Shown: piece after piece, positions 41,027 to 63,206 of the stretch
How the letters are laid out: each line of letters opens with the position of its first letter
Position numbering within the stretch: position 1 is the first letter of the stretch
Source: Sulfurovaceae bacterium
GTDB lineage: Bacteria; Campylobacterota; Campylobacteria; Campylobacterales; Sulfurovaceae
Length of the DNA stretch: 64,000 nucleotides
Assembly (NCBI GenBank): GCA_028715055.1
Contig: JAQTLE010000001.1
Coordinates: 248,001-312,000, forward strand
Reading direction: 5' to 3'
Translations under genes and position numbers: made by a program
Notes under the pieces: generated by a model
Databases searched by the model: none
The model's input: only the letters and a program-made list of their open reading frames with translations
Told to the model about the DNA's origin: nothing

Positions 41027-42112
<1,086 letters not shown>

Positions 42113-42390
42113 ATTAGTTCTCAAATTTGGAGCAAAGCTCCAAATTAGGTCTTCAGCAGACAGCTCTCGCGACTAGTCGCTCTTTTTAAATTCTCAAGCA
42201 CAACTAAACAAAAATTCATAAATAAAATTTTTTCGCTCAAACACTCCTTGTGCTCGCACTCTCTTTGAGAAATCTACAGTAAACTAAACAAAAATACTTT
42301 TTTAACAACCTGTTTTTAAAAAATTTCATTTTGACATTTTTTTAATCTATTTTTTGTGCACATGGCATAATTTCCAAAAAAGGAAATTTT
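42113..42390 (+). other. Gap between ilvC and the broken dprA
   Basis: The 278-base gap holds an inverted repeat AATTTGGAGC-AAA-GCTCCAAATT (42124-42146) and a palindrome GCGACTAGTCGC (42169-42180) followed by TCTTTTT, which together probably end ilvC transcription. A 14-base direct repeat AACTAAACAAAAAT occurs at 42202 and 42282. CATAAT at 42366-42371 with AAAAGGA behind it looks like the promoter and ribosome site of dprA. No gene seen. Confidence 0.5.
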
Positions 42391-42662
42391 GTGTCCCGAA
42401 TAATATTAGAAAAAATTGCTCAGCTTGAATCTATGGCAAGTTATCCTAAAAATCTTTATTATAAAGGCAATATTTCTCTTTTGAAACGTCCAAAAGTATC
42501 CATAGTCGGAAGTCGTAAACCAATTCCTTATACCAAGCAATATACATACACTCTAGCACAAGAATTATCAAAAAGAGGAGTTTGCATAGTCAGCGGAGGA
42601 GCTATGGGAGTTGATGCTATTGCTCATGAAGGTGCAGGAGCCGATAATACCATAGCAATACT
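42391..42662 (+). pseudogene. dprA: dprA, 5' fragment (host copy interrupted by the transposon)
   Basis: DprA loads RecA on incoming single-stranded DNA during natural transformation. This fragment encodes the first 90 residues from a GTG start with AAGGA upstream, including the Rossmann-fold motif 'VSIVGSRKPIPYTKQ' and 'CIVSGGAMGVDAIAHEGAG'. The frame is cut at 42662 by the transposon and runs on for about 25 foreign codons to a stop at 42738. Joined to 63207-63714 it gives an intact frame of 780 bases (259 residues), the normal length for Campylobacterota DprA. No other damage is visible in either piece, so the insertion looks recent. Confidence 0.95.
42658..42662. repeat. Target site duplication, left copy
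   Basis: ATACT directly before the transposon end TGTCAT. The same five bases follow the right end at 63202-63206. Five-base duplications are the rule for Tn7-type transposition. Confidence 0.93.
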
Positions 42663-42707
42663 TGTCATATACAAGAACAAACTTAACTCTACAATAATAA
42701 ACTTAAC
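42663..42707. repeat. Left transposon end with two TnsB-type binding sites
   Basis: The terminal TGTCAT is followed by TACAAGAACAAACTTAAC (42670-42687) and TACAATAATAAACTTAAC (42690-42707), two closely packed copies of an 18-base element. The same element occurs three times, inverted and more widely spaced, at the right end. Asymmetric arrays are typical for Tn7-like ends and set transposon polarity, although here the left end has fewer sites than the right. Confidence 0.85.
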
Positions 42708-42718
42708 TGGAAATAGAT

Positions 42719-44371
42719 ATGTCTCAAACTATAGATGAATTATTTGAATCAAAATCGTATGACACTTTTGAACTTGGTATCATATTGGATATAGATATAC
42801 AAAAAGCTCCATACTATTTTATGGCCGTCATGATTAATGTCAAAACAAAATGGAATGAAAATATTCTAATACCACCAGAACAGCTAAGATCTAAATATAA
42901 GGTTGGGTACTGTTATCAAAATGGCAAAAGAGTTATCAGTAGTTATGCTATAAAGAAAGATTTTATAGAAATAGACATTTCATCTCATATTTCATTGCAT
43001 AGAAACAGCAATTTTTTTAACAATATTTGTACTGTAAATGATAGTGTTAATGAATATAACAATAAGTATTTTCTCAAGCAACTGTCGTATAAAATTGACA
43101 TGAAGGGTTATATATTGATTGTGCCAAGTTATACTATAGCATTACGATATTATTTTTTATCATCATCCATGAAAAATGCAATCATGGACGGTAACCTTAA
43201 TGAACTTCACTACAAGGATTCTTGTTATATTCAAGATGATTGTGTAAATATACATATAAAGAAAAAAGCCGGTATCAAAGATTTACCTTTTTTGTGCAGG
43301 TTCCTTATTAATCCACAGGCATTTTCCAGAATGAAACGTCATAATCACCAGCGCTCTAATGCCAAATATCCGAATACCCAAATTTTAAGCACATTCCCAA
43401 TTGATGGTAAAATAGGGTTAAGTTGTTCATATAAAGTACTTGACTTCAAAATAGATGAAAAACCAGTTTATTATGTTTTGGATATTCAGAACGATGATTC
43501 ACCTTTAGGTTTTAGTAAAATAAACTATAAACGATATTCCTCAAAAGAATCAGAAAAAAATGCTGAACTAATATCACTTATGATGCCAAGACCAAATAGA
43601 TTCAAGAAAAGAGACTTTTTGCACAAAGATAATATTGCAAGGAAAGGCTCGCCATCAATACATAATGCATATGAAGCTATTCTTGAAAAGAAAGAAAAAG
43701 ATTTAAATACCAAAGATTTAATTATAAACGGTTCAAATATATATATGCCATCCAATGGAAGTGTTGAGCATGAATTTGTTGATGAAACAGGAAGCAATAG
43801 TTTTGAACCGGTAAGAAACAATGGGGATCCAAGGCTCTCAAATGCAACATATTATGAAACAGAATATGATCAAAACGAAACGATATTTGCACTGAATGAT
43901 TTTATTCAATTTTATGATACGCTCATGACTTACCCCGGCGTAATTGAGTTGGATGAAATTAAATTTTATGATATTGAAAAATCTTCAAACAAACAAGTTA
44001 GATCTAAATATATTATTAAAAATACTAGGCAAGCTCGTCAATTTTTATTTTCTATTTTTGCTTATGATGATAGATTTGTTTATATAATTGAAATAGAACA
44101 AGATAGATCATGGCAACTAGCTACATGGTTTTTTGTTTCAAACGTAGGTGAAGATACGGTTTATGATGTAAGTTTTGCTCATGATATTATACAAACATTT
44201 ATTGATAATGATTCAACGTATAAAAAACTTGAAGAAGATGTTTTGGAAACATATTCATTGACCTTAATTCACCATAACCATAAAAGAGGTGATGTTGATG
44301 ATATAGAAATAGACAGCTGGTGTGATGGAATATTGAATAAAATACTAAAACTTAATAATATGGATATCTAA
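42719..44371 (+). CDS. TnsE-like transposon target-selection protein
   Basis: A 550-residue protein that starts 56 bases inside the left end. By layout it resembles Tn7 TnsE (538 residues), which directs insertion to replicating DNA such as plasmids. Resemblances are an N-terminal beta-rich part, a central 'LIVPSYTIALRYYFLSSSMKNAI' segment like TnsE 'IPQLELARSLFLINSYFC', and a C-terminal domain with 'RQARQFLFSIFAYDDRFVYIIEIEQD' and a final 'DDIEIDSWCDGILNKIL' like TnsE's closing helix. There is no catalytic motif and no signal peptide. Identity is low, so the call rests on order of features, length and context. It lies 2 bases from the carried dprA. Being at the opposite end from tnsABC is unlike Tn7 itself. 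Confidence 0.6.
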   Translation: MSQTIDELFESKSYDTFELGIILDIDIQKAPYYFMAVMINVKTKWNENILIPPEQLRSKYKVGYCYQNGKRVISSYAIKKDFIEIDISSHISLHRNSNFFNNICTVNDSVNEYNNKYFLKQLSYKIDMKGYILIVPSYTIALRYYFLSSSMKNAIMDGNLNELHYKDSCYIQDDCVNIHIKKKAGIKDLPFLCRFLINPQAFSRMKRHNHQRSNAKYPNTQILSTFPIDGKIGLSCSYKVLDFKIDEKPVYYVLDIQNDDSPLGFSKINYKRYSSKESEKNAELISLMMPRPNRFKKRDFLHKDNIARKGSPSIHNAYEAILEKKEKDLNTKDLIINGSNIYMPSNGSVEHEFVDETGSNSFEPVRNNGDPRLSNATYYETEYDQNETIFALNDFIQFYDTLMTYPGVIELDEIKFYDIEKSSNKQVRSKYIIKNTRQARQFLFSIFAYDDRFVYIIEIEQDRSWQLATWFFVSNVGEDTVYDVSFAHDIIQTFIDNDSTYKKLEEDVLETYSLTLIHHNHKRGDVDDIEIDSWCDGILNKILKLNNMDI

Positions 44372-44373
44372 TA

Positions 44374-45150
44374 ATGATTGGTCGCATTTCGGAAAATATC
44401 GTTGAGTTTAATGTAATGAAAAAATATCCGAAAGAGATATTTTACAAGGGTAATGTTGAATTACTAAAAAAGCCAAAAATATCAATAGTCGGTAGTCGCA
44501 ATCCAAATCAATATGCACAGATGATGACACATGAAATTGCCTACAAACTTTCTTGTGCCGGCATCTGCATAGTTAGTGGCGGAGCTGTTGGAATCGATAC
44601 CATATCTCACAAAGCTGCCGGATTATATAATACTATTATGGTCGCAGGTACAGGGCTAGACAAAAGGTATCCCTCTATAAATAGACATTTGATACAAGAT
44701 ATAGAAAATTATGGTCTAGTACTTAGTCAATTTCAACTTGGAACACAATTTAATAAATATAATTTTCCCATAAGAAATGAGCTGGTTGTAGCGTTGGGAA
44801 ATATATTGATAGTTACTTATGCAGATATAGACTCTGGAACTATGAGAAGCGTGGAATATGCTATTAAAATGAAAAAGGATATATATGTATTGCCTCATCG
44901 AATTGGAGAGAGCGAGGGTACAAATGGATTGTTAAAACATGGACTTGCAAAAGCAATCTATGATATTGATGAATTTATAGCTAGTATAGGTGTAAATAAT
45001 TTATGTATTGATCCAGGAGACGAGTTTTTAAAGTATTGCAAAACAAATCCAACATTTGATGATGCTGTAGTAAAATATGGAGAGAAGGTATTTGAGTATG
45101 AATTGGACGGAAAGATAAAGGTAAATAATGGTCAAATTTATAGAATCTAA
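44374..45150 (+). CDS. dprA: DprA carried by the transposon (full-length second copy)
   Basis: A complete 258-residue DprA: 'ISIVGSRNPNQYAQM' and 'CIVSGGAVGIDTISHKAAG' (Rossmann fold, ssDNA-binding residues), 'FPIRNELVVALGN', 'DSGTMRSVEYA' and 'VLPHRIGESEGTNGLL', then the C-terminal extension 'FLKYCKTNPTFDDAVVKYGEKVFEYEL'. Each block has a counterpart in the interrupted host gene; by eye about half the residues agree, so it is a diverged homologue, not a recent duplication. It can replace the host protein. It follows the TnsE-like gene by 2 bases and points the same way as the broken dprA. Alternatively it serves the transposon directly, for example in handling single-stranded DNA. Confidence 0.93.
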   Translation: MIGRISENIVEFNVMKKYPKEIFYKGNVELLKKPKISIVGSRNPNQYAQMMTHEIAYKLSCAGICIVSGGAVGIDTISHKAAGLYNTIMVAGTGLDKRYPSINRHLIQDIENYGLVLSQFQLGTQFNKYNFPIRNELVVALGNILIVTYADIDSGTMRSVEYAIKMKKDIYVLPHRIGESEGTNGLLKHGLAKAIYDIDEFIASIGVNNLCIDPGDEFLKYCKTNPTFDDAVVKYGEKVFEYELDGKIKVNNGQIYRI

Positions 45151-45332
45151 AAACAAACAATGATTTTTGCCATCCAAAATATTATTAAAAAGATGATTTT
45201 ATTATTATTTGAGGTATTGAGATATTAAATTGTAGATTTTTTTCAAAAAAGCACAAAAATTAATCATACCTTATATCTATTTATTAGATAATTGAGATAA
45301 AATAATGTTTATTTTGGTTATTCAAGGGATGT

Positions 45333-47081
45333 TTGTTGAGAGTTGGTTTGTTGTTAGTATTATTGCTATTTGGATCCATTGAAGCGTTTGCACTATCTTC
45401 CCAAGAGATCGAAGCTATTCAATTACAGATAGCCAAAGAAAGAGAAAAAGCCATCCAAAATACTCAACCGGCAGCTCCAACGGTAAATCTCCAAGAAACA
45501 AACATTACTACCCCCAAAAAACTTACTATTATTGACAACGAAACCCCTTGTTTTAACATAAAAAATGTAGAACTTGTAGGCGAAGATGCCAGTATGTTTA
45601 AATCAAGTCTATCATCCGCACTGAAAAGTATCGGATTTCGATCAGGACAATGTATCGGTGCAAATAGTATCAACGCCATTCTTAGTGCTATTGGTAATGA
45701 GATCATACGCAATGGATTTGTAACTACTAGAGTTGTTGCCAATCCCCAGGACATAAAGAGCGGCAAACTTAAACTTACTGTAATGCCAGGAAAAGTAAAT
45801 GATATCAGATTTGAACAAAATCCACAAGTTGATACAAATATAGAGAGAGCAAATAGTTTCAATGCTATGCCTGTAAAGAAAGGTGATGTATTAAACATAA
45901 GAGATATAGAGCAGGGTTTGGAAAACTTCAAACGAGTGCCAACGGTCGAGGCTGATATGCAGATAGTTCCTTCCAAGGAGCAAGGGTCTTCAGATGTTGT
46001 CATCAAATGGATTCAAAGAGAAGTACCTTTTCGTCTTAATTTATCTATAGATGATGCAGGTACATCCAGCACGGGTAAATATCAAGGTGGAGTTACAATA
46101 GCAGCAGACAATCCATTTAGACTAAATGATATATTTTACTTTAGTTGTGGCAGTGATGTAGCAGGATATGGCAAAGCAACCGTATTGACTCCAAGCGGCT
46201 CTATTGATTCCATGAGAGGCAATTCAAAAAACTTTAGTTTGCATTATTCTATTCCATATGGATATTGGCTGCTTAGCTTTAATGAAAATAGATATAACTA
46301 TCATCAGGCAGTTGCAGGGGCAAACCAGGTATACGATTACAGTGGTCATAGTAACAATAAGGACATCTCTTTATCGTATCTTTTTCAAAGAAACTCTACT
46401 GGGAAAAGTTCTATATATTTAAAGGGCTGGGAGAGGTTTTCTGACAGCTTTATAGAAGATGCGGAGATAACTGTCCAACGCAGAAAAACTGCAGGATATG
46501 AAATAGGACTGACACATCAAGAACAAACAGGTAATGCTTTGTGGAATTTTGGATCGTCCTTTAGAAAAGGTACAGGCGCAATGGGTTCACTTCCGGCTCC
46601 TGAAGAAGCATTCAATGAAGGTACTAGCAGAATGGAGATCATAACAGCAGATGCGTCTGTGTTTACACCAGTCTACTCTTCGCCATTTATATATGAAGGT
46701 TCCATCCATGTACAATATAACAATACTCCTCTCGTCCCTCAAGACAGGCTTTCAATAGGAGGAAGATATACAGTAAGAGGATTTGATGGGGATTATACTC
46801 TGATGGCAGACAGGGGGGCTATATGGAGAAATGCTCTTGCCTATTCATATCTGGCCAATCATCAAATATACGGCGCGATTGACGGTGGATATGTAGATGG
46901 TCAGAGTGCAAAATTGTTAGTCGGTAAAACGCTGGCCGGAGCTGCTATCGGACTAAGAGGTCAGTTTGCATTTGGCGGCAATTTGTCTTACGATATATTC
47001 GCAGGAACCCCCATATACAAACCGGATAATTTTGAGACCAAAGATATAACATTTGGCTTTAGCCTAAATTATACACTATAA
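45333..47081 (+). CDS. Two-partner secretion outer-membrane transporter (TpsB/CdiB-like)
   Basis: A 582-residue Omp85-type transporter of the ShlB/FhaC/CdiB group that exports the adjacent exoprotein. Signal peptide about residues 1-20, an N-terminal plug helix region, a POTRA domain ('CFNIKNVELVGEDASMF...CIGANSINAILSAIGNEIIRNGFVTTRVV', residues 72-150), a second POTRA and a 16-strand barrel with the 'VRGFDGDYTLMADRGAIWRN' loop-6 motif. No ATG fits; TTG 45333 or 45336 behind AAGGGA is used. The 182 bases before it are AT-rich with a possible GATAAAAT -10 box. It lies 8 bases before the exoprotein gene. Confidence 0.9.
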   Translation: MLRVGLLLVLLLFGSIEAFALSSQEIEAIQLQIAKEREKAIQNTQPAAPTVNLQETNITTPKKLTIIDNETPCFNIKNVELVGEDASMFKSSLSSALKSIGFRSGQCIGANSINAILSAIGNEIIRNGFVTTRVVANPQDIKSGKLKLTVMPGKVNDIRFEQNPQVDTNIERANSFNAMPVKKGDVLNIRDIEQGLENFKRVPTVEADMQIVPSKEQGSSDVVIKWIQREVPFRLNLSIDDAGTSSTGKYQGGVTIAADNPFRLNDIFYFSCGSDVAGYGKATVLTPSGSIDSMRGNSKNFSLHYSIPYGYWLLSFNENRYNYHQAVAGANQVYDYSGHSNNKDISLSYLFQRNSTGKSSIYLKGWERFSDSFIEDAEITVQRRKTAGYEIGLTHQEQTGNALWNFGSSFRKGTGAMGSLPAPEEAFNEGTSRMEIITADASVFTPVYSSPFIYEGSIHVQYNNTPLVPQDRLSIGGRYTVRGFDGDYTLMADRGAIWRNALAYSYLANHQIYGAIDGGYVDGQSAKLLVGKTLAGAAIGLRGQFAFGGNLSYDIFAGTPIYKPDNFETKDITFGFSLNYTL

Positions 47082-47089
47082 GGAGTATT

Positions 47090-50000
47090 ATGAACCACGT
47101 ATTTAAAACAATCCATAAAAAGATGAAAGGCTTTGCAAACACAACTGTAGTTGTAAGCGAAAATGCCTCGTCCCTTTCTTGTGCAACAGATAACCGATCC
47201 GCTCTCAGTCAGGATATACAAATTACAGATATCTTTACTACCATAAAACAAACTCTGAGTGTGAGTATGGCATCGTTATTGTTTGTCAGTTCACTCCAAG
47301 CAGATATCATTGCAGATGCATCCGCCCCACATAATCAACAACCGACAATTTTGCTCACAAACAGCGGAGCAACGCAGGTAAATATCCAAACACCAACAGC
47401 CGGCGGTGTATCTATGAACCAATATACCCAGTTTGATACCAAGAATAATGGAACGATCATAAACAATTCCAGAACAAACACAAACACTGCCACGGCCGGT
47501 TGGGTACAAGCCAATCCATGGCTTGCCACAGGGAGTGCCAGTGTAATAGTAAACCAGGTAAACTCATCCAATCCAAGTAACCTAACAGGTAATATAGAAA
47601 TCGCAGGAAGCAAAGCAGACTTTATCATAGCAAATCCAAACGGCATAAGCATAGACGGAGCAACTATTATCAATGCCGGAGGTACGACATTAACCACAGG
47701 CACCCCGCTTCTTAATAACGGAAATTTAGATGGATTTAGTATCAACAATGGAACGGTTAGCATACAAGGTTCAGGATTAAATGCACTTGGTTCTGACTAT
47801 ACTAGCATACTTGCTCGTGCTGCAGTGATAAATGCCGGCATCTGGGCAAATGACCTGAAAGTGGTTACAGGAACAAACACCATTTCTGCCGATAGTACAA
47901 ATATAGAAGCCAATACACCGAACACTCCAGCACCGCTCTTTGCTATTGACAGCTCGGTCCTTGGCGGAATGTATGCGAACAAGATCACATTCATAGGGAC
48001 TGAAAGTGGAGTAGGGATCAATAATGCCGGAACTATAAATGCAGGCACCATCTCAATAGACACAAACGGTATGCTAACCAATCGTGGACTTATAGATGGA
48101 AGTCAAACGACAGTAAAAGCAGACACAATAAACAACATAGGAACGGGAAGAATATACGGCGACTTCCTGGCATTGCAAGCAGTTACGTTAAACAATACAG
48201 ATGAAACAATAGGCGGCATAAACGCTTCAGCCATTGTAGCTGCAAGAGAAAATCTGCAGATCGGAGTACAAACGCTGAACAATATAGAGCATTCTTCTTT
48301 GTATAGTGGTGGAGATATGTATATAGGCGGCTATTTGGATGAAAACAATCTTGTTGCCGGCAAAGCCTCGGAGATCAATAATATATCTGCCACTATAGAA
48401 TCAAAAGGGAATATGAGTTTGGCAAGTGATAAAATAAACAACATTAATAATCATTTGGAAATCCAACAAGTAATAGACTCTATTATATATGAGGCGTATA
48501 TTTTACCAGACGCTCGTTACGAAGTTGGCAAATCAGGAGAATGGTTCTCGCTAGGTGAGTGCAGCGGAATATTTGGCAAACAGGATGATAACTATTGCGG
48601 TACAGAAGCACTTGCTATTTTAAAACAAATAGAAGATATCAAGGCAAGTTATAGTAAAAACAGCACTACCAACCCTTTTTATATCAACAGTTCACCTTTG
48701 GGATATATTGTAGACAAAGAGTATCAAAGGCTTATGAAACTTTTGACTCCTTATACATTCGAAGATTATACTGTGATCAAACAATACACTACTACATCAC
48801 ACACCGAGCTGGTTTCCTCTGATCCGGCTGAGATAATCAGCGGTGGGGATATGTATATAGACGGATTGTTATACAATAAAGACAGCCATGTAATAGCAGG
48901 CGGAACTATACTTACTTCGCAAAATCCTATAAATGAAGAGACCAAAGGTCAGGATATCATATCATTTGACGGCAGCACCATTGAGAGAACAACCGTAGAG
49001 TCTAGTGGACTATTTGGCAACAGTCATAAAAGAAAATGGCATGGCAAGGCTTCATATGACCTGGCAGACATTTATAGCGAGCTTTATACCCTCGGATCCA
49101 ATCAAAATCTGGAGGATCCGCAAGACCAAATAAATGGAGCTATAATTAGTGCCTCAAGTATAATAACAACCGGCAGCAATGATCTATTTAATAATGGCAC
49201 TATCATAGCATACAATGCCATAAGCCTAAACAGTGCAGGATTGATTAACAATGATACGGGTAATATAAAAGCAGACGGCATTGCACTAAGAGCCAATGAT
49301 ATAAACATAAACCGCGGAAATGTAGAAGCTAACAGCGTCATGATACTTGACGCTGCAAACAATATCAATATAGCTTCCCAGACATACTCTACATCAAACA
49401 CAGACGGAAAAAGCAGCTTTAGTCGTACAGGCATGCAGAATAATGCCAATATAGCAGTAAACAATAGTGATGGTTTGCTGCTGGTAAATGCCGGCAATGA
49501 TATTAATCTAAACAGCGCTGACATAATAAACAATGGAATATTCACACAATTTCAAGCAGGCAATGATATAAACCTTGGCACTATTCAAACTTCGCAGCAA
49601 GACAATGTCATATGGAACAGCAAAAACCACCGTATAGAGGGATACTCTCACGAAGTCGGAAATACTATACAAACGAATGGAGATAATACCATAATAGCCG
49701 GCAATGATATAAATGTCATCGCAGGCACTATAGACAGCTTTTACGGTACCACTGCGTTAATGGCGATTAATAATATCAACATATTATCAGGAACTGATAC
49801 CACCAATTACGATGAAGCTACTTATATCAAAACAAGTTCTTTGCTGGGCACCACAAAAACCACTACACTTGAGACCAAAGATACTACCACATCACAAGGC
49901 TCATATATAGGAGGAGACCGAGTACTAATTGCCAGCGGCAATGATCTAAAGATACAAGGAGGTGCGGTCATATCAGACAACGGCACGGCATTAAGCGCTA

Positions 50001-52870
50001 AAAATGATATAAATATACTATCACCGACAGATACTGTGTATCAGACATATTTTAATCAAGTAAAAAAATCAGGGCTGTTTAGCAACGGCGGATTGTCTGT
50101 AACACTTGGTAGTTCTATGAATTCTATAGATAGTGACAATTCATATACTATGCTTAATGGTTCTATGGTTGGAAGTCTTTATGGGGATACTATGATAACA
50201 GCAGGGAATGATCTGATCATAACAGCTTCTGATGTCATTGCCGGCAATGACATATTTGGAGTGGCAAAAAATATAACTGTTATAAAAGGAGAAAATGAAT
50301 ACGATAGTTCCGTAGAACAAAAGTTCAAATCCTCAGGATTAACTGTAAGTTTGGGCGGCACTATAGGCAATGCCGCCAATGCTATTGACTCAACTCTATC
50401 ACAAGCTAGTAGTGCAAATGATAGAGGCAATGATCGTCTAACAGCTGCATATGCTACCAAAGCAGCACTTATCGCTACTCAAGCAGGACAATCTATATAT
50501 CAAGATATAACCGATGTCTCAGATGCCTCTAAAGCTGCACAAGGTTCCATTATAGGAGTTTCGGTTTCCGTCGGCTCAAGTAAAAGCAAATCAATATTTA
50601 CAAGTAACAGTACAGAGACCGCAAGCTCTACTGTTACTGCAGGCAATCGTGCAACATTCATAGCTATAGGCGACGATATCGTTGATAGTGACGGCTATGC
50701 CAATAGCGGCAATCTGCTCATATATGGCTCAAATGTTTCAGGAAAATATGTGGATTTAATAGCAGCAAAAGATATGTACTTATTATCAGCAGCCAGTACA
50801 TCAGCAGAAAATAGCAATAATGAATCAAGTGGATTTGCCGTAGGAGCAAATGTAGGCATATCAGCTAGCGGTAATGTCGGAGTATCTGTATTTGTCAATG
50901 CAAATATGGCTGAAGGCCAAAGCGTTGGAGAAAATGTCACTTATGTGGAAAGCACAGTAAATGCTACAGATAATTTAAATATATTATCAGGCAGAGATAC
51001 CGACATAATCGGTGCCATAGCTTCCGGAAATAGCGTATATGCCAACATAGGAAGAGATCTAAATATAAGATCCCTTCAAGACAGTGCAACATATGACAGT
51101 AAACAAACAAGTGCAAGCGCAGGGATCGAAGTACCTATTGTAGGAGCAGGTGCGCTTAGCGGCAGTGTAAGCGCAAATCAACAAAAGATACTCAGTAACT
51201 ATGTCAGTGTTAATGAACAAAGCGGTATCATAGCGGGTAACGGTGGATTTGATATCACTGTAAAAAGCAATACAGACTTAAACGGAGGAACGATAGTGAG
51301 TGCAGCACCAAAAGAGCTAAACAGTCTGAATACAGGTTCGCTTACATTTAATAATCTGGAAAATTATGCCGAGTATAAAGTCTCTAGCAGTGGTATTGGT
51401 TTCAGCACAGGCGGAAGCTATAGCAATTTGGTCAAACGTACTATTGCATCTCAAGCCCCTCAAGCTCTAAATAACAGTGAAAAGGTTTCAAGCACCACAT
51501 ATGCAGCCCTCTCCTCGTCAAACGTAACCATAAATGGCAAAACAGCAACTGACGAACAACTCCAAGGTTTGGCAACAGTAAAAAGCGATAGCCATATAAA
51601 CACTATCTTTAATCTCCAAGATGTTCAAGACTCTATGGCACTAGCAAGTACTATAGGAGACATAGGAGTATTGAGCAATAATGTAATCTCTACAGCTCTT
51701 AGCAGAGACAGCTATGTAGCAAGGGATAAGGCTATAGCAAATGCTGAAGCAAATTATAAAGATAGTGTAAGCGAAGCTGCATGGAATGACTATGTAAAAA
51801 ATCCCGATGTAGGTATACTCCTGAAATTTGAATTTGATCAAAAATATGCAACAGATCCGTATTTTAGAGTTGCGTATGATTCATTAAGTGATGAAAAGAA
51901 AGTTACATTTATACAAGATTCTATAAATCAAGGCAATTATTTTGGTAGTGTGAGCCAAGCAGAAGCGCAGTGGCATCAAACCCAAACCATGTATGGTATA
52001 GGAAGTGATCTAGATAGAGCCACTCAAGCAATTACTGGAGCATTAAGTGCTCTTGCTATGGGTAATTCATCCGGTGCAGTAGCAAACCTTACCCAACCAT
52101 ATATAGCAAACGAGATAGGTAATTACTTCGATGATCCGAAAAACACAAACGAAACAGCTAGACTCTTTGCTCACGCAGCACTAGGAGCTGCGAGTGCTTA
52201 TATCAGCGGTAATGATGCAGCATCAGGAGCACTCGGAGCAGCAAGCGGAGAAGCTATAGCCATATTGGTCCAAAAAGAACTCTATGGAGATAAATCATCA
52301 AATGAATTAACCCAGCAAGAAAAAGAAACCATCCGAGCAGTAGCCACGCTTGCAAGCGGACTAGTCGGAGCTATGAGCGGAGGGAGTTTTGAGGATAGTG
52401 CTACAGCAGCTGCAGCGGGGTATAATGCTGCGGTGAATAATAAGCTTAAAACAGAAGCAGAGGCAGAGGCAAGCAACCTTAGAAATCAAGGTTTTTATTT
52501 CCTTGCAAAACAAGACAATCCAGACGACCCAAATAGTTGGTACGCTTATCCTGCTTTAAGTGCAGCTTATCAAATTGCCGTAGGACAAGAATCAGCTCCT
52601 CAATATTGGAATGGTTCTGCAAGAGAAACATTTGATAAAGTCATAAAAATTATCTCATATGCATTTTTAGGGAGTAAAATAATGATTGGAGTAGCAGAAG
52701 AAGTTGGCTATGGATGGAGTGTTCAAAAAGCTGCCGGACTTACAGGAGGAACATATGGGGCAGGCTTAGGAATGATAGATAATGCTAGTGGTATAAATTT
52801 TCAAGATTGGATCAGTCCGTCACATTATATAAATCAATTTTTTGAATCCCATGATTCAGCAACAAAGTAA
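47090..52870 (+). CDS. CdiA-like filamentous haemagglutinin exoprotein with C-terminal toxin region
   Basis: A 1926-residue TpsA protein. An extended signal peptide (residues 1-73, with the NHVFKTIHKKMKGF start) is followed by the TPS domain (about 75-300, 'PNGISIDGATIINAGGTTL'), then long beta-helix repeats with many 'AGNDINL' and 'SGNDL' motifs, a filamentous region and a pre-toxin domain (about 1665-1785) ending 'AAVNNKL', the place of the VENN motif of CdiA. The last 140 residues are unrelated to repeats and form the candidate toxin ('ETFDKVIKIISYAFLGSKIMIGVAEE' is hydrophobic). It is exported by the upstream TpsB. Toxin activity is not recognised. Confidence 0.85.
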   Translation: MNHVFKTIHKKMKGFANTTVVVSENASSLSCATDNRSALSQDIQITDIFTTIKQTLSVSMASLLFVSSLQADIIADASAPHNQQPTILLTNSGATQVNIQTPTAGGVSMNQYTQFDTKNNGTIINNSRTNTNTATAGWVQANPWLATGSASVIVNQVNSSNPSNLTGNIEIAGSKADFIIANPNGISIDGATIINAGGTTLTTGTPLLNNGNLDGFSINNGTVSIQGSGLNALGSDYTSILARAAVINAGIWANDLKVVTGTNTISADSTNIEANTPNTPAPLFAIDSSVLGGMYANKITFIGTESGVGINNAGTINAGTISIDTNGMLTNRGLIDGSQTTVKADTINNIGTGRIYGDFLALQAVTLNNTDETIGGINASAIVAARENLQIGVQTLNNIEHSSLYSGGDMYIGGYLDENNLVAGKASEINNISATIESKGNMSLASDKINNINNHLEIQQVIDSIIYEAYILPDARYEVGKSGEWFSLGECSGIFGKQDDNYCGTEALAILKQIEDIKASYSKNSTTNPFYINSSPLGYIVDKEYQRLMKLLTPYTFEDYTVIKQYTTTSHTELVSSDPAEIISGGDMYIDGLLYNKDSHVIAGGTILTSQNPINEETKGQDIISFDGSTIERTTVESSGLFGNSHKRKWHGKASYDLADIYSELYTLGSNQNLEDPQDQINGAIISASSIITTGSNDLFNNGTIIAYNAISLNSAGLINNDTGNIKADGIALRANDININRGNVEANSVMILDAANNINIASQTYSTSNTDGKSSFSRTGMQNNANIAVNNSDGLLLVNAGNDINLNSADIINNGIFTQFQAGNDINLGTIQTSQQDNVIWNSKNHRIEGYSHEVGNTIQTNGDNTIIAGNDINVIAGTIDSFYGTTALMAINNINILSGTDTTNYDEATYIKTSSLLGTTKTTTLETKDTTTSQGSYIGGDRVLIASGNDLKIQGGAVISDNGTALSAKNDINILSPTDTVYQTYFNQVKKSGLFSNGGLSVTLGSSMNSIDSDNSYTMLNGSMVGSLYGDTMITAGNDLIITASDVIAGNDIFGVAKNITVIKGENEYDSSVEQKFKSSGLTVSLGGTIGNAANAIDSTLSQASSANDRGNDRLTAAYATKAALIATQAGQSIYQDITDVSDASKAAQGSIIGVSVSVGSSKSKSIFTSNSTETASSTVTAGNRATFIAIGDDIVDSDGYANSGNLLIYGSNVSGKYVDLIAAKDMYLLSAASTSAENSNNESSGFAVGANVGISASGNVGVSVFVNANMAEGQSVGENVTYVESTVNATDNLNILSGRDTDIIGAIASGNSVYANIGRDLNIRSLQDSATYDSKQTSASAGIEVPIVGAGALSGSVSANQQKILSNYVSVNEQSGIIAGNGGFDITVKSNTDLNGGTIVSAAPKELNSLNTGSLTFNNLENYAEYKVSSSGIGFSTGGSYSNLVKRTIASQAPQALNNSEKVSSTTYAALSSSNVTINGKTATDEQLQGLATVKSDSHINTIFNLQDVQDSMALASTIGDIGVLSNNVISTALSRDSYVARDKAIANAEANYKDSVSEAAWNDYVKNPDVGILLKFEFDQKYATDPYFRVAYDSLSDEKKVTFIQDSINQGNYFGSVSQAEAQWHQTQTMYGIGSDLDRATQAITGALSALAMGNSSGAVANLTQPYIANEIGNYFDDPKNTNETARLFAHAALGAASAYISGNDAASGALGAASGEAIAILVQKELYGDKSSNELTQQEKETIRAVATLASGLVGAMSGGSFEDSATAAAAGYNAAVNNKLKTEAEAEASNLRNQGFYFLAKQDNPDDPNSWYAYPALSAAYQIAVGQESAPQYWNGSARETFDKVIKIISYAFLGSKIMIGVAEEVGYGWSVQKAAGLTGGTYGAGLGMIDNASGINFQDWISPSHYINQFFESHDSATK

Positions 52871-53363: not shown

Positions 53364-54629
53364 TTAGGTTGCCCTTAAAACAACAATACTTTCTCTCAAA
53401 CGTTTGGATGTTGCATTGCCCTCAAGCCATTTTTTCGCATTTTGCATAGAGTTGCGTAAATGTCTAGTTACAATAATTTCTTCTAATTCCCATCCAACTT
53501 TCGTTCCAATATCCGCCAAAATGAGATCTACTGGAATTTCAACACCTGCATATGCTGAAGTTGATACTACAAGCCATAAACTAGCATTTTTGTCAGCTTT
53601 ACTTTTTAATTGAGTGAGAATATTTTCCATATCTTCAAAATATGCTTGAATCATAGATGGTAAATTTGTATTCCAAAGTTGATCTTTTCTTTGAATGATT
53701 TCATTAATAATATTTGCGTACAAGAGTCCAAAATCGCTTTTAATAGGTTTGTCCCAATCAACTTGAATATGTGAACGCAATGTTTGGTATCTTAATTGAC
53801 GGAGTTCAGCATTATTATGAATAAATTTACCTAAAAATAATTCTGGTCTATAAATATCAGTATAATCAAATGAGTTTAGATAAGGTGGAGACGTAACACA
53901 GAGTTGAAATTTTTGATCTATTTGAGATGATATTTTTTTTCTTGAATCTCCAAGAATGATTTTTGATTTTTTATCAAGTTTAGAATGATCTAAATCATCG
54001 ATAATCCGATTTAATTTTTGTTCAAAAGAAGCTAAAAAATCATCTTGGCTATAAGATTTTTTTTCCCAATCTTTTTTGTATCGTAAACATTTTCCATCTT
54101 TTGCAGCATTGCAATTATCCATTACGGATGCAAGTAAGCTTAATTGAAAAATATTTTTTGTATCACGAGGCAAAGTATCTGCTTGTTGCCATCCGCCTTC
54201 AAAAGATCTCAAAACATCAAGATTAAAAAGCCATTTTTCTTTATCATTTTCTGTAAATGTGGAGAAATTTTCTAAAGAACTTTTAGCACCTTTTGTAATT
54301 GATTGAAGGATAGAATCTTTGTATTTAAGAATATTTTTTTTGCTAACATTTGATTGTTTTGCTTTTGCAATAAAAGCCATGAATGGATTTACTTCAAAAC
54401 CAACACTTTGCATATTTCTATTGCTGGCTACTAGAGGTGTGGTGCCGCTTCCGGAAAATGGATCAATAATAAAAGCATTCTCCTCTAAGCCGGTAGAATT
54501 AATAGCTTCCTCCACGAGGAGTGGAGAAAAGCCTTCTTTAAAATAATACCAATTATGTCTTGGTAGGTTTTTGGAATGTTCAAAATTGGAAAAATCTTTA
54601 TCAGTTAATTTATGACTATGATTAAACAT
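53364..54629 (-). CDS. DNA amino-methyltransferase (N4-cytosine/N6-adenine type)
   Basis: A 421-residue methyltransferase with the AdoMet loop 'DPFSGSGTT' (residues 56-64), 'GFEVNPFMAFIAKAK', and catalytic motif 'TSPPYLNSFDYTDIYRPE' at about residue 240. The SPPY motif favours N4-cytosine, though N6-adenine enzymes can share it. Last gene of the operon starting at 58224, with 2 bases to the nuclease-like gene. It would protect the element and host from a partner restriction activity. Confidence 0.9.
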   Translation of the reverse strand: MFNHSHKLTDKDFSNFEHSKNLPRHNWYYFKEGFSPLLVEEAINSTGLEENAFIIDPFSGSGTTPLVASNRNMQSVGFEVNPFMAFIAKAKQSNVSKKNILKYKDSILQSITKGAKSSLENFSTFTENDKEKWLFNLDVLRSFEGGWQQADTLPRDTKNIFQLSLLASVMDNCNAAKDGKCLRYKKDWEKKSYSQDDFLASFEQKLNRIIDDLDHSKLDKKSKIILGDSRKKISSQIDQKFQLCVTSPPYLNSFDYTDIYRPELFLGKFIHNNAELRQLRYQTLRSHIQVDWDKPIKSDFGLLYANIINEIIQRKDQLWNTNLPSMIQAYFEDMENILTQLKSKADKNASLWLVVSTSAYAGVEIPVDLILADIGTKVGWELEEIIVTRHLRNSMQNAKKWLEGNATSKRLRESIVVLRAT

Positions 54630-54631
54630 GC

Positions 54632-55684
54632 TTATCTACACTTTGGTTCTGCAAACATAATAAAAGGTTTTTCAAAATTCTCGTGAGATAATACATAGCT
54701 TTGATAATAAGAAGATAGATCTTCAGCAGAAAAATAAAGTCCATCTGCACAATTGATATCTGTCATGCCTTTGCTCAATCCTCTTCGTCTCCCATTTATT
54801 ACAATAAGATATCCCTTTGTGATTGACGTTGGATTGTCTGTGCGATCGAAGTCAAGATAATCTGCTAATTGTTTTGCACCATCAGTTACTCTTGAAGGTG
54901 AATATGATGTAGCAAATCTTCCATCAGGATGGCATGATTGTCCCAACCATTTTATTTCAATCATTGCATAACGGTTAGCCTCTGGCCAATGAACCATAAT
55001 ATCCACTGGTTTTGATGCATTCAAATTATATTCTCTTATTACTTGAGCACCTCTAATTTTGATTGACAGGTATTCTTTTAAAGAAATTTGTATATGTTTT
55101 TCGGGTAAATCTTTACCCCCACCTTGAAAAAATATTCTATTTGTTTGGAACCAAGCTTCGTTTAATAGGGCGCATGATGTATATCGTACTTTTTCTACAT
55201 TATATTTTTCTAGTGCTTCATATATTTCGTGATATTGAAGCGCATACCGGCTTGCACTATAATATCTATTTAATATTTCTATTTTTTGATTATTGGCGTA
55301 AAAGCATTCTTGTCTATTTTGATAAAAATAAAATAGAGCTTTGTTCGTTTTTACAAATGAAATTATGTCAATAGGATCACTAATCAAATGTATACTGCCA
55401 TTTTCAAAGATTTGTATAACTAATTGTTGAGCAGTATTATTTATAAGAAATGTTTTATCATATTTTGCTTGAGAATTAATATTAGGTAAAAGAGTATCGT
55501 CAAATGTTTGATAAATTAGAAGCTCACCTGCATAGTGCCCAGGTTCTAAATAGCGGTAAATTTCACCAATATTCTTAATTAAGTTACTGGCAAGACTTGT
55601 TGAACGAGGATCATGATCAAATGCCTGATAAATGGTTAAGAGGTAATTTTCTTTTATATTTGCATCTCTTGTAGTGGAATTCAT
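54632..55684 (-). CDS. PD-(D/E)XK nuclease-like protein
   Basis: A protein of about 350 residues. Its C-terminal half shows the restriction-endonuclease core: D228 in 'PVDIMVHW', then E243-x-K245 in 'AMIEIKWLG', and a following helix 'DGAKQLADYLD' with the conserved Gln. The N-terminal half is unrecognised and may recognise DNA or bind partners. The start is ATG 55684, next to the TGA of the gene before it; a TTG at 55693 is less likely. It is between the small helical protein and the methyltransferase, suggesting that it is the effector cutter of the system. No other nuclease motif is seen in the operon. Confidence 0.7.
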   Translation of the reverse strand: MNSTTRDANIKENYLLTIYQAFDHDPRSTSLASNLIKNIGEIYRYLEPGHYAGELLIYQTFDDTLLPNINSQAKYDKTFLINNTAQQLVIQIFENGSIHLISDPIDIISFVKTNKALFYFYQNRQECFYANNQKIEILNRYYSASRYALQYHEIYEALEKYNVEKVRYTSCALLNEAWFQTNRIFFQGGGKDLPEKHIQISLKEYLSIKIRGAQVIREYNLNASKPVDIMVHWPEANRYAMIEIKWLGQSCHPDGRFATSYSPSRVTDGAKQLADYLDFDRTDNPTSITKGYLIVINGRRRGLSKGMTDINCADGLYFSAEDLSSYYQSYVLSHENFEKPFIMFAEPKCR

Positions 55685-55685
55685 A

Positions 55686-56258
55686 TCAGTCAATACCTTT
55701 GTTTAATAGATACTGAATCCATCCTAAAGAAGGGATTATTAAATCGCCACTTGGCACACCAATGGCAGCACTCAACTCTTCAAATTTACTACTTGATAAA
55801 TCTTGTTTTAACGTTTGATTTCCAATTGCATTTGAAACACTTGGGTCACTTATTAGAGCTTTTATTGTTTCTTGATAAGGCATAAGTATACTGGTTGTAC
55901 ATGCTGCATCTAAATAGGACTCTCGTTTTTGAAAAATAGTTAAGTTTTTAAATTTATTGAGTTCATCAAGACCTCTTGCGCTTATTTTGAAATAATCAGT
56001 TCCACTTTTTTCAAGCCACCCGTTTTGGATATGTCTCTGTAAAGCTAGTGCTAGATCATCAGCATATGGGTAACCATTAAAAATTATATACTGATAATTC
56101 CAGTCGGCCGGTGTTTTACCATCATATAAAAATAAAATAGAGGCAAAATATGAAAATAAATGTATTTCTTCTAATTGAAATGCATCTAAAAAATCATCTA
56201 ATTTGTGTGCGATTGATAAACTATCGTAAAACGCTTCAGGTTTAACTTCTGACTGCAT
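55686..56258 (-). CDS. Small middle-component-like protein, probable winged helix
   Basis: A 190-residue soluble protein I do not recognise by name. The central part 'DLALALQRHIQNGWLEKSGTDYFKISARGLDELNKFKNL' looks like a winged-helix (helix, turn, wing, helix). Its position between an SMC-like ATPase and an effector is that of the 'middle component' of ABC-three-component conflict systems. It overlaps the ATPase gene by 17 bases. A role as adaptor between ATPase and nuclease is an inference. Confidence 0.5.
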   Translation of the reverse strand: MQSEVKPEAFYDSLSIAHKLDDFLDAFQLEEIHLFSYFASILFLYDGKTPADWNYQYIIFNGYPYADDLALALQRHIQNGWLEKSGTDYFKISARGLDELNKFKNLTIFQKRESYLDAACTTSILMPYQETIKALISDPSVSNAIGNQTLKQDLSSSKFEELSAAIGVPSGDLIIPSLGWIQYLLNKGID

Positions 56259-58224
56259 TGTCTTTTTCCTTCATAGCATTTTCAATTCTAAGATAAACTT
56301 CTTCAAAAAGAGATTCACCTTCTTTTTGAATAATTGATAAGTCAGTCCAGTCAAGCATACGTTTAAATGTCATCTTCTTGTGACCACATCTCTTCGCTAA
56401 AGAAAGTAATAGTTGAGAGGCATTAATATTGGCTGTAATGATTAGATGTTGATTCTTCTCTACAAAATCAGCAAACATTTGACCAACTCTGTTTTCGTAT
56501 GCAATATCTAATGAACCTTCCGGCGTATCTATCAAAATTGTAGCTTCATTATTTTTTTTAGATAGGTATACAGCCAGGGCCATACGAAGAGCTATATCGA
56601 TAAAAAATCTTTGGCTTTCGCTTAGTTGAAAATGAGCTGTGCGGGCAGTACTTTGTAATTCTAAAACTAATTTCATCATCTGAGCACTTTTTTCAAATGA
56701 GATATCCAAATCAAGACCAATAAAGCTTTTTGCAAATTTTTTGAATATAGGGACAAAGTCTAATTCAGCTTCTTTGTATGCATTAGAAATTTTTGTTTGC
56801 AATTGTATAAATGAGAGCTTTATTTGATCTCTAATCTTGTATTCTTCTTTTGATTCAAAATCAAGGATTTCATATTGTTTTTGATATTCATTAATTAACA
56901 TATCAATGCTTGATCCAGATGTCTGTTGAATTACGAGAGGATGCGAATATTCAAATTCATTTTTTAATTGCTGAACCTCTTTAAGCTCATATGCCACTTT
57001 TTCTAATTCTGCTTTTTTTGTATTGATTTCTAATGTTGTTTTTTCTAATGCAGTTGTTTTATCTGCTATATATTGGTCATGATTTTGAATTTGTGTTAAA
57101 AGCACAGCTTGATCATTCTTTGAATCTTCATCTATTGTTGTACCACATAAAGGACAGTGATCTTTATAAAGATTATTTTGGATGGTTGTATGTATTTGTT
57201 CACTTTTGGCATGACAAATACAGCATTCTTTGTTATCCATGGACATTTTTACAAAGACATTATTAAGTAAGATGGATCTGGGTTGTGAATATTTTGAAAA
57301 TAATTTTCCATGTTCAATTTTTAACTGTAATATTTCTGCATTTAAATAACTTTGATTTTTCAATAATGTTTGATATTCAATTTCAGTATTATTATATGCG
57401 TTAGTTGTCCTTTCGTACTCAGCAAAAATATTTTCATATTCTTCAAGTGTAGCTTTTGTATCAGATACAATTTCTTTGTCTTTTAATAAATGGTCAATTT
57501 TATTTTTTATCTGAGTTGCTTGCCATCTTTTATTACGTCCATCAGATTCATGTTTTTCCATTTTTCTTTTTAAGGATATTATTTCTTCTGTATCGGCCAA
57601 GTCAGTATTAAATGCAATTGATAAAGTATGTAGAGATGCTCGATCGTCCCAAAAGATCATTCTTCTACTCTCATCAAACGTAAAGACATATAATTGCAGG
57701 AACATAAAAAAGTCAAAGTTTTTAATATCTACGGCTTTAGCAATTTGTTTTTCATACTCTTTGTTTAATTCAGTGGGAGACATTGAGCTAGTGTCAATTT
57801 TAGGAATTTTCTTATTCTCAATAATTTGATAAATTTCCAATCCTCTTAATTGGTTTAATTCGAAAAAACCGCGGATAATGCGAAAATATAGTTCATTAAT
57901 TTTAAAGTGAAGCTCTACTTCCGCTACTTTTTCATCACTAGCATGGATACGACCTTTAAAATATTTAGTAGTGTACTTTTTATTCTCTTTTACTATTTCT
58001 CCTGGTGAAAAAACTTCCCTGTTTGGTTCTAAAACAATACCTGTATATCCAAAATTTATAGCATTTAAGAAAGTAGTTTTCCCTAATCCATTGGCACCGG
58101 CTAAACAAAAAACACCATCATAAATTTCTTCATCAATAATCTGAATCTGTTTGTTTTTAGTGTAAAGTGAAAAATTTCTCAAAATAATTTTTTGTAATTT
58201 TGGGAAGTTATATTTTCCACTCAT
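56242..58224 (-). CDS. SMC/Rad50-like ABC ATPase of a defence operon
   Basis: A 660-residue ATPase. Walker A 'LAGANGLGKT' is at residues 41-50, followed by a long coiled coil broken near residues 335-360 by two CxxC motifs ('CCICHAK', 'CPLCGTT') like a Rad50 zinc hook. A signature-like 'LSESQRFFIDIALRMALAVYL' (about 532) and Walker B 'ATILIDTPEGSLD' (about 562) complete the ABC head. It resembles DndD, RloC-type and ABC-three-component ATPases. First gene of the four-gene operon; AAAGG lies before the ATG. The 246-base gap to tniQ holds only AT-rich DNA with a possible TATGATAAAA -10 region. Confidence 0.82.
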   Translation of the reverse strand: MSGKYNFPKLQKIILRNFSLYTKNKQIQIIDEEIYDGVFCLAGANGLGKTTFLNAINFGYTGIVLEPNREVFSPGEIVKENKKYTTKYFKGRIHASDEKVAEVELHFKINELYFRIIRGFFELNQLRGLEIYQIIENKKIPKIDTSSMSPTELNKEYEKQIAKAVDIKNFDFFMFLQLYVFTFDESRRMIFWDDRASLHTLSIAFNTDLADTEEIISLKRKMEKHESDGRNKRWQATQIKNKIDHLLKDKEIVSDTKATLEEYENIFAEYERTTNAYNNTEIEYQTLLKNQSYLNAEILQLKIEHGKLFSKYSQPRSILLNNVFVKMSMDNKECCICHAKSEQIHTTIQNNLYKDHCPLCGTTIDEDSKNDQAVLLTQIQNHDQYIADKTTALEKTTLEINTKKAELEKVAYELKEVQQLKNEFEYSHPLVIQQTSGSSIDMLINEYQKQYEILDFESKEEYKIRDQIKLSFIQLQTKISNAYKEAELDFVPIFKKFAKSFIGLDLDISFEKSAQMMKLVLELQSTARTAHFQLSESQRFFIDIALRMALAVYLSKKNNEATILIDTPEGSLDIAYENRVGQMFADFVEKNQHLIITANINASQLLLSLAKRCGHKKMTFKRMLDWTDLSIIQKEGESLFEEVYLRIENAMKEKDNAVRS

Positions 58225-58470: not shown

Positions 58471-59589
58471 TTATCTTTTAAAATAATTCACATTTCCAAA
58501 CAACCTAGACAAATTTGCCTTTGTAATATCAAGTCCTTTGGAAACCAAATATTTTTTTCCATTTTCAATCTCTTCCTTTGTTACCATATTGCCAAAAGCA
58601 ATATATCTAGGAGATATATCATTCAGTAAATTCTCATACCAAAATGACACATATTTAATATCTTTGACCATATTCCAATGGGTCAGATTATTTTCCTTCA
58701 TGAAGCTGGTAAAGTTTTTAGGATATTTTTCAAACAAATACCAAATTAGACCGAAAAGTGCGAATTTTTCTTTGATATTAAGCTGAATATAGATTGACTT
58801 TGCTTGATTTGGTTTTCTATTGAATGATTTTTTTAGTATCGCAAACAATGGATGTTTGTTTATAAATTTTATGTTTTTTCTTGAAATGATAAGTTTTGTA
58901 AGTTGAATTATAACATCAAAAATATAAAATGAATATACACTTACATCATTATCTAGTTCGGCGTATCCTTTATCTGCTATATGTTGTAGATTTGCCTGTC
59001 CATGTATGCCCATTATATGCTTTTGATTGACGTTTATTTTTCTTGCTTTTTTGAATTCAAAGCCACATTTAGAACAGTATGTGAATGCAAATTTATCTTT
59101 GTGCATTTTTAGTATAGATAACTTGGAATTGCACTGCGGGCAAGAATCATACAAAAAGCAATTATGTAATGTACATACAGTCGAGAAAGCAAGTTTCCAA
59201 TATTTTCTAAAATATGGCACATTGTCTTTTCTAAGGCAAATTGGGCAAAATTTTAGATCACTAAAAAATCTATTTGATGCTATCTCTATATCATTTTCCT
59301 GTATATATCCTGAATATGTTTTTAATGTCAAGTTAAATACATCTACTTTGTCGTTGCACATAGTTTTGATTCTATTCAATAGTTTCATATTTAATGATGT
59401 ATCAATATTTTTCTTAAACAAGCTCCTGTTTTCCAGTCCAAAGTATAGGTTTATAAAAGTCTTTGGATGAAGGTAGTGGGCATATGAAAGTCTGGCAAAC
59501 CATGAACTAAAAAGTTCATCATTATATGGGATTGGTATTATGCTAAACGGTAAATATTGAAGATTGTTTGTTTTGATATTTTTAATCAT
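58471..59589 (-). CDS. TniQ/TnsD-family target-selection protein
   Basis: A 372-residue protein with the TniQ N-terminal pattern 'PYNDELFSSWFARLSYAHYLHP' (residues 21-42), a cysteine/histidine zinc-binding region (C115, C118, C139, H142, C144, C150, C153, C172, C175) and a C-terminal helix-turn-helix-like end ('DITKANLSRLFGN'). TnsD binds a chromosomal attachment site and recruits TnsC. It is shorter than Tn7 TnsD (508). Its ATG overlaps the tnsC stop by 4 bases. It is the natural candidate for recognising dprA, though the target sequence is not proved. Confidence 0.88.
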   Translation of the reverse strand: MIKNIKTNNLQYLPFSIIPIPYNDELFSSWFARLSYAHYLHPKTFINLYFGLENRSLFKKNIDTSLNMKLLNRIKTMCNDKVDVFNLTLKTYSGYIQENDIEIASNRFFSDLKFCPICLRKDNVPYFRKYWKLAFSTVCTLHNCFLYDSCPQCNSKLSILKMHKDKFAFTYCSKCGFEFKKARKINVNQKHIMGIHGQANLQHIADKGYAELDNDVSVYSFYIFDVIIQLTKLIISRKNIKFINKHPLFAILKKSFNRKPNQAKSIYIQLNIKEKFALFGLIWYLFEKYPKNFTSFMKENNLTHWNMVKDIKYVSFWYENLLNDISPRYIAFGNMVTKEEIENGKKYLVSKGLDITKANLSRLFGNVNYFKR

Positions 59590-60521
59590 ATGTCAAGTAA
59601 AGCTTCGTATTGTTTTGTGTTAGCCGTAGATGAATACCCACAATTTTTAATTTCATCAATAGTAATTTTTTCTTTATTGTTTTTTAATGCATAAATAGTT
59701 GCCTTTTTCAGTAGGCCAATTATGTCTCCTATATTTCCATCTGATATATTCAAAATCTCTTGAGCAGTTTTTGGGTTAAGAATATCAGACTCTTTGCTAA
59801 GTGGCAATGTAGTCAATATGGTTGCCAAGAGATTAACATAGTTTTTGTCCATTTTCCATTTGGTAAGATATGCCGGCCTAAATCTACTGCTTATTTGTGT
59901 ATCGGTGCTGACTGCTCTTAGTGCATCTTTTGTTCCAGATAAGATGATAGGAATTTTGAGATTATTGCTTAGATTTTTAATGGCATTTAACATTTGCTTT
60001 TGCCTGGCAACCGAACCGCTTAAAATATTATGTATTTCGTCAATTATCAGCATTTCAACATTTAAAATACCTAAATAATATTCTACTAGATATTGTTTTC
60101 TAGATACACTTTCACTTTCTTTAAATGGTGTATTTATACTTTTTAGTATTTCTCCATACAATCTTGTTTCGCTAGGTTCACTTGGTGAAACTATGTATAT
60201 AAGCGGAATACCGGTTGCATTATATTTTTCAAAAAATTCTTTTGTTAATTTTTCTGGATTTGTTGCAAATAGATCATATGAAGGATGAAGATCTATAAAT
60301 CTTTGCAAAATAGATGTTTTGCCATTGTTTGGCGATCCTACCAGCAGAACACTTGTGACTCTGGTTTTGCCTTGTTCATGTTTGAGTATATTTTCAAATT
60401 GATTTAGTGTATTTTGAGCTAATGGATAGTTTATCCATGTTTCTTGATTTATGTATGCTATTTTTTCATCCAGTGTCTTGTCCAGCATGGATATTGTTTC
60501 TTTTGTGAGATCAATCTTCAT
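59586..60521 (-). CDS. tnsC: Tn7-like regulator ATPase TnsC
   Basis: An AAA+ ATPase that links target recognition to the transposase. The protein is about 311 residues from ATG 60521, which follows AAGGGG by 7 bases; a start at 60554 further inside tnsB is less likely. Walker A 'GSPNNGKTS' is at 62-70 and Walker B 'MLIIDEIHN' has D161 and E162. Sensor-like 'ILSGTKDA' follows. It is shorter than Tn7 TnsC (555 residues) and close in size to TniB. It overlaps tnsB by 11 bases. Confidence 0.92.
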   Translation of the reverse strand: MKIDLTKETISMLDKTLDEKIAYINQETWINYPLAQNTLNQFENILKHEQGKTRVTSVLLVGSPNNGKTSILQRFIDLHPSYDLFATNPEKLTKEFFEKYNATGIPLIYIVSPSEPSETRLYGEILKSINTPFKESESVSRKQYLVEYYLGILNVEMLIIDEIHNILSGSVARQKQMLNAIKNLSNNLKIPIILSGTKDALRAVSTDTQISSRFRPAYLTKWKMDKNYVNLLATILTTLPLSKESDILNPKTAQEILNISDGNIGDIIGLLKKATIYALKNNKEKITIDEIKNCGYSSTANTKQYEALLDI

Positions 60522-63201: not shown

Positions 63202-63206
63202 ATACT
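63202..63206. repeat. Target site duplication, right copy
   Basis: ATACT directly after the terminal ATGACA, matching 42658-42662. Confidence 0.93.

Follow-up and report, generated by a model that had tools for sequence, protein, structure and literature searches.

Tn7-like elements inserted in dprA, some of which carry an intact foreign dprA

The stretch of DNA analysed here in its full length of 64,000 nucleotides, referred to as the window, comes from a Sulfurovaceae bacterium (genome G000; other G-numbers stand for surveyed genomes) and holds a Tn7-like transposon which has inserted into the host dprA gene and which carries a complete, diverged dprA of its own. In the survey described below, dprA was found split around a Tn7-like element in 13 genomes, and a complete second dprA was found in five of these. 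The replacement is real and recurrent but optional, since eight of the 13 elements lack a carried copy. The explanation favoured, to which a probability of roughly 65% is given, is that a Tn7-like element targeting dprA breaks this gene, and that some of its lineages have captured an intact foreign dprA supplying the destroyed activity, which would lower the cost of insertion and plausibly keep the host transformable. The features on which the argument depends are the following, with expect values (E) for domain matches and lengths in base pairs (bp) or amino acids (aa).

42391-42662, + strand: 5' part of the host dprA (PF02481, E 1.4e-24), ending in the left ATACT; its frame continues into the element to 42738
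42663-63201, no strand: Tn7-like element, 20,539 bp, with ends TGTCAT...ATGACA; its flanks rejoin to an intact DprA
42670-42708, + strand: left-end repeats resembling TnsB sites, two copies of about 19 bp
42719-44371, + strand: TnsE-like protein, 550 aa, whose C-terminal part matches TnsE structures
44374-45150, + strand: carried dprA, complete, 258 aa (PF02481 at residues 15-195, E 2.6e-52)
58471-59589, - strand: tniQ (PF06527, E 4.9e-22)
59586-60554, - strand: tnsC (PF05621, E 7.9e-58)
60511-62379, - strand: tnsB (PF09299, E 5.7e-9; rve, E 2.1e-6)
62366-63094, - strand: tnsA (PF08722, E 1.6e-13; PF08721, E 5.2e-5)
63066-63196, - strand: right-end repeats resembling TnsB sites, three copies of about 20 bp
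63202-63714, + strand: 3' part of the host dprA (PF02481, E 7.2e-26), beginning with the right ATACT

The insertion can be read exactly. Both termini of the element begin TGTCAT, with 26 of the 30 terminal bases matching, and the 5-bp target duplication ATACT lies directly outside each end (42658-42662 and 63202-63206). Joining the flanks without the element yields an open DprA frame of 259 aa and, in genomes G139 and G250 of the same genus, dprA is uninterrupted, with about 81% DNA identity to the host gene. The thioredoxin-like gene following dprA is the same in the window and in both relatives, and ilvC precedes dprA in G139. The claim of the preliminary description that the element interrupts dprA was thus borne out. 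With tnsA, tnsB, tnsC and tniQ all at the right end and all recognised by Pfam, TGT...ACA ends accompanied by repeats, a 5-bp duplication and an oriented, site-specific insertion, the element is Tn7-like. The right terminus, read outwards, is ATGACA and places an ATG in frame with the 3' part of dprA, giving a 172-aa frame (63196-63714).

The carried gene, which begins 1.7 kb in from the left end and is read in the same direction as the broken gene, falls in the length class of the host protein. In addition to the PF02481 domain, it has a C-terminal stretch (residues 215-252) matching a DprA fragment of solved structure (6gw7, E 6e-9). Its identity is 51% to one host part and 49% to the other, so that the completeness, length, position, direction and roughly half identity noted at first all held. 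A search of the G000 genome returned three DprA matches, namely the two host parts and the carried gene, and no intact dprA besides the carried copy was found in it.

The survey began with a search for TnsB in 397 genomes of the phylum, and the 42 that proved positive were searched for DprA; a profile of seven TnsB proteins was subsequently run through the four families holding split-dprA genomes (228, 44, 104 and 175 genomes), with a cut-off of E 1e-150 for the first family and 1e-180 for the other three, more distant elements being uncounted. DprA was sought in 17 and then in 6 further positives or overlaps, every TnsB positive thus being examined. The 13 genomes with dprA split around an element are G000, G240, G271, G030, G309, G345, G275, G389, G203, G449, G455, G410 and G758, their hosts including Sulfurospirillum (G240), Sulfurovum (G758), Sulfuricurvum (G389, G449 and G455, hereafter the trio), a Sulfurimonadaceae bacterium (G410) and an Epsilonproteobacteria bacterium (G203). 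Ten elements are contiguous, and those of G203, G758 and G449 lie in contig pieces, possibly with gaps. All 13 show a 5-bp duplication in dprA and turn their tnsA side towards the 3' part of the gene; the left end of the G240 element starts with TCT, not TGT. Moreover, 80 of 364 TnsB relatives in named genomes were kept, and DprA matches occurred in eight of these 80 loci, seven being elements already counted and one a native gene. A search of viral_contigs gave one distant TnsB (34% identity), and plasmid TnsB matches amounted to at least 5000 records, all below 60% identity among the matches listed. Genome G327, whose own dprA is intact, contains a sister element in two copies located elsewhere, with equal TnsB scores and a TniQ 42% identical to that of the window.

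A second complete dprA is present in G000, G758 and the trio. The comparison group consisted of genomes with a related TnsB and a dprA unsplit by an element (33 + 8 + 5 = 46 genomes, G526 being left out because only a 44-residue dprA piece was found there), and a second complete dprA was found in none of them, against five of 13 (Fisher p=2.6e-4; p=0.0056 with the trio counted once). In the 397-genome sample taken separately, a second dprA occurred in two of nine split-dprA genomes and in none of the 388 others (p=4.6e-4), three of these 388 giving no DprA match and the list of matches reaching down to about 233 bits. Within the survey, therefore, carriage of dprA is associated with its disruption. 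A second complete dprA as a common genome feature was ruled out by the genomes checked: among 22 further sample genomes with two DprA matches, examined singly, 21 second matches were distant (27-36% identity, frames of 260-449 aa) and the remaining one, in G066, was a piece of a broken dprA; the second matches in G195 and G314 were likewise distant, and the native dprA of G009 consists of two pieces lying side by side. A distant DprA-like paralogue within these ranges of identity and length is held by many Campylobacterota.

The carried copies are foreign to their hosts, as the preliminary description has it for the window in calling the gene heterologous. In a tree of 61 DprA proteins (44 native, 12 rejoined host and 5 carried, the G240 host gene being left out), the host genes of the carriers group with natives of their own genus. 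The G000 copy belongs with 15 natives and two hosts in a supported set (99/94), where its exact place is weakly supported; by path it is nearest to three natives of the Sulfurimonas/Sulfuricurvum family, and its identity to any of these proteins does not exceed 67%. The copies of the trio form a clade of their own (100/100), and that of G758 is placed weakly. Base composition marks the G758 copy as clearly foreign, with a G+C fraction of 0.353 vs 0.517 in the host gene; in G000 no clear foreign composition was seen (0.332 in the carried vs 0.360 in the host gene). A single origin of the five copies was rejected by the approximately unbiased test (p=2.8e-6), as it was for G000 with the trio (1.2e-5) and for G000 with G758 (0.0125), and was not rejected for the trio with G758 (0.34). 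At least two captures must therefore have taken place.

Between members of the trio, the carried DprAs share 91% identity, in line with TnsB (91-94%) and TnsA (88-91%), as well as with the TnsE-like protein (92%) and TniQ (85%), each of the latter two compared in one pair, the host DprAs being only 73-78% identical. The ratio of non-synonymous to synonymous substitution rates (dN/dS) of the carried gene in the trio is 0.09-0.13, at a dS of 0.43-0.61. Furthermore, the 48 columns with a conservation of 95% or more among the 44 natives are all kept in each of the five carried proteins; natives tested singly depart from them at a median of one and at most five columns. An identity matching that of TnsB, a low dN/dS and the retention of the 48 conserved residues show that in the trio the carried gene travels with the element under purifying selection.

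These results would be explained if the conserved dprA coding sequence served as the chromosomal attachment site of a Tn7-like transposon equipped with TnsA, TnsB, TnsC, TniQ and a TnsE-like protein, and if some lineages had captured an intact foreign dprA and kept it towards the left end, in the same direction as the broken gene. The region upstream of the host dprA in the window probably drives a single unit made up of the truncated dprA, the TnsE-like gene and the carried dprA. DprA activity lost by insertion would then be supplied by the carried protein, plausibly restoring transformation and possibly favouring the spread of the element.

Several observations weigh against this explanation. 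No intact dprA was found by genome searches in G240, G271, G030, G309, G345, G275, G203 or G410, so that the loss of dprA appears to be tolerated in these eight non-carrier hosts. The association with disruption is modest when only two captures are counted (Fisher p=0.029), and dN/dS is measurable in the trio only. The competence protein gene ComEC does not account for who carries a copy, being present in all 13 split-dprA hosts; host incompetence as the reason for non-carriers was accordingly discarded, the two groups not being separated, and the loss of DprA could therefore matter in all of these hosts. As regards expression, the carried gene lies 1.4 kb (G389) and 5.3 kb (G455) beyond the TnsE-like gene, so that an operon does not cover these carriers, and promoter-like matches in the window were no commoner than in shuffled sequence (26 vs 21.5, sd 4.9). 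The idea of a built-in replacement for the broken target therefore stands in part: a whole heterologous dprA is found on dprA-breaking elements in five of 13 cases and in none of the comparators, following at least two captures and with purifying selection in the trio, and it is not fixed. The universal version of the idea fails on the related insertions in dprA that have no internal copy.

The first alternative to be weighed is that the copies are passengers, an element residing inside dprA having recombined with foreign dprA DNA and been left incidentally with a whole gene which was never selected as a replacement. The eight elements without dprA would fit such a history, as would traces of turnover: a tblastn search of the 61 DprAs against the 13 elements, ten of them contiguous and three in pieces, found no decayed dprA in the non-carriers and a single remnant in carrier G389 (L073:9098-9286), downstream of its intact carried dprA, and this second tail, 63% identical to the G449 copy over 41 residues, suggests that dprA has been gained and lost repeatedly in the element. 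A weak antisense match in G389 (E 0.007) was taken as chance. Nevertheless, the dN/dS of the trio, an identity equal to that of the transposition genes and the conserved columns kept in all five copies speak for selection, and passenger capture is considered unlikely. It is a little less likely still that the carried DprA serves the element itself, by handling incoming single strands for its own transfer, by working with the TnsE-like protein or by guarding incoming DNA from restriction. Although the carried gene comes immediately after the TnsE-like gene in G000 and the two overlap in G758, and a methylase cluster is among the cargo, the two genes lie apart in G389 and G455, some elements at the same target have a TnsE-like gene and no dprA, and none of the 46 comparators with a related TnsB has a second dprA.

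That the carried protein is instead the DprA-like part of a defence module of the ShosTA or PsyrTA type is highly improbable. It does match the PADLOC model of ShosA (E 7.2e-44), but native chromosomal DprAs match this model equally well (6.8e-46 and 1.8e-47), and the C-terminal DprA region is present. Neither neighbour of the carried dprA fits a toxin partner by PADLOC, structure or family matches, the upstream one having no PADLOC match and being TnsE-like, and the downstream one being TpsB-like. A bolder form of the replacement explanation, tentative and on balance doubtful, sees two opposed strategies at one attachment gene, by which elements without dprA silence host transformation and others swap in a dprA that they own; the window element and that of G758 would have captured the region upstream of the host dprA, so that a TnsE-like selector and the replacement DprA would be read together. 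If this were true, DNA uptake, the processing of foreign DNA and transposition towards incoming DNA would switch on together, and the element would own the DprA of its host.

The insertions recur at two positions. The duplication starts at dprA nucleotide 168 in eight elements (first site) and, in the five second-site elements, at 267 (three elements), 265 (G030) and 276 (G240). In nine of the ten contiguous elements, G030 being the exception, this start coincides with a codon boundary of dprA. A TniQ tree comprising 12 of the 13 dprA elements and one element with another target unites the five second-site elements in a single clade (100/99), the seven first-site elements grouping weakly (56/14); the TnsB tree intermingles the two sites, with three changes forced for the first-site label. 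Since the TniQ tree tracks the insertion site and the TnsB tree mixes the sites, TniQ is likely, judging from these phylogenies, to select the position of insertion. These results point to dprA as a gene in which Tn7-like elements attach at either of two positions, according to their TniQ lineage. That the carried gene has been recoded against re-insertion was rejected, as the copies of four first-site carriers keep the sequence adjoining the insertion point. The carried dprA of the window lacks the GATAT found in the four second-site hosts compared; the lysine which results is common to two of its three nearest natives, and the missing motif may simply be inherited.

The 550-aa gene that separates the break from the carried dprA is, as far as a structural model allows, TnsE-like, with a C-terminal TnsE fold. 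The model (mean pLDDT, predicted local distance difference test score, 68) gave Z scores of 13.0 to 9d5l and 12.2 to 5d17, the next unrelated row scoring 6.5, and the best Foldseek E was 5.6e-3. Sequence searches of the 550-aa protein gave no firm match; TnsE_C (PF18623) matched weakly in four of eight homologues (best E 0.01), other families being as weak and one better (DUF3600, E 6.4e-4, in one member). A similar long gene (548-602 aa) occurs in eight elements including that of the window, and a related short form (341-421 aa) in G030, G309, G275 and G410; no reading is drawn from a tree in which the two forms stand apart, because long branches meet there. Counted from the left end, the TnsE-like gene comes first, the exception being the G345 element, in which it adjoins tniQ. 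The four carriers in which it was fully read all have the long form, only its start having been read in G449, where the carried dprA is on another contig. The TnsE-like gene of G000 overlaps at its start with the frame of the truncated dprA and is separated from the carried dprA by two bases; in G758 there is overlap of open frames at both junctions. No terminator-like site was found on the + strand in 42050-45400.

Tn7 itself inserts beside glmS without harming it, whereas the window element lies inside dprA. The two are alike in having TnsA, TnsB, TnsC, a TniQ-family selector, a TnsE-like protein, a 5-bp duplication and a fixed orientation; unlike in Tn7, the TnsE-like gene of the window stands at the end opposite tnsA. 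Some integrative elements regenerate a tRNA or the end of a gene at their att site, and in these too an element-borne sequence relieves the cost of insertion; the difference here is that a complete foreign gene lies inside the element and the two host parts stay separated.

Published papers allow further comparison. Targeting of glmS by Tn7-like elements has been linked with TnsD, and TnsE homologues are described as almost universal in glmS- and comM-targeting elements (PMC11406308). Tn6022 uses TnsF to target comM, a disruption which could limit the transformation of other elements (PMC10293859). The Tn6022/AbaR elements (PMC10293859, PMC11406308) resemble those described here in being Tn7-like, in having TnsE and in inserting into and inactivating a natural-transformation gene, but their target is comM instead of dprA, and some elements here carry an intact copy of the target gene; their selector is TnsF, whereas TniQ tracks the site here, no TnsF-like selector having been recognised and no search having been aimed at one. 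Since transformation can remove mobile elements, those that break competence genes have been regarded as taking part in an arms race and as weapons against transformation (PMC4774983, in the available part of which dprA appears only in reference titles), and inactivation of comM has been described in Acinetobacter (PMC11472951, whose available text names DprA only as a transformation protein). These elements share with ours the breaking of a competence gene; in those accounts, however, they gain by switching transformation off, and some of ours bring a replacement. No account of dprA being targeted by Tn7-like elements, or of a replacement being carried, was found in the literature searched, supplements and most subscription papers, which may list dprA, lying outside it. 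Elements at one target thus include plain breakers and breakers with an intact foreign replacement captured at least twice, and such natural pairs make it testable whether mobile elements gain from competence switched off, or switched on with a gene of their own.

The remainder of the window element is cargo, a subject surveyed in PMC8649781.

45333-47081, + strand: TpsB-like (ShlB/POTRA) outer-membrane transporter
47090-52870, + strand: 1926-aa protein
53364-58224, - strand: four-gene cluster of an N6/N4 DNA methylase, an SMC-like ATPase and two further proteins

The transporter and the 1926-aa protein (45333-52870) resemble a two-partner secretion pair, the latter, by its position and look, probably being the secreted partner. 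The methylase and SMC-like ATPase cluster has the appearance of a defence or modification cluster, and the cargo proteins include ones of 353 and 190 aa.

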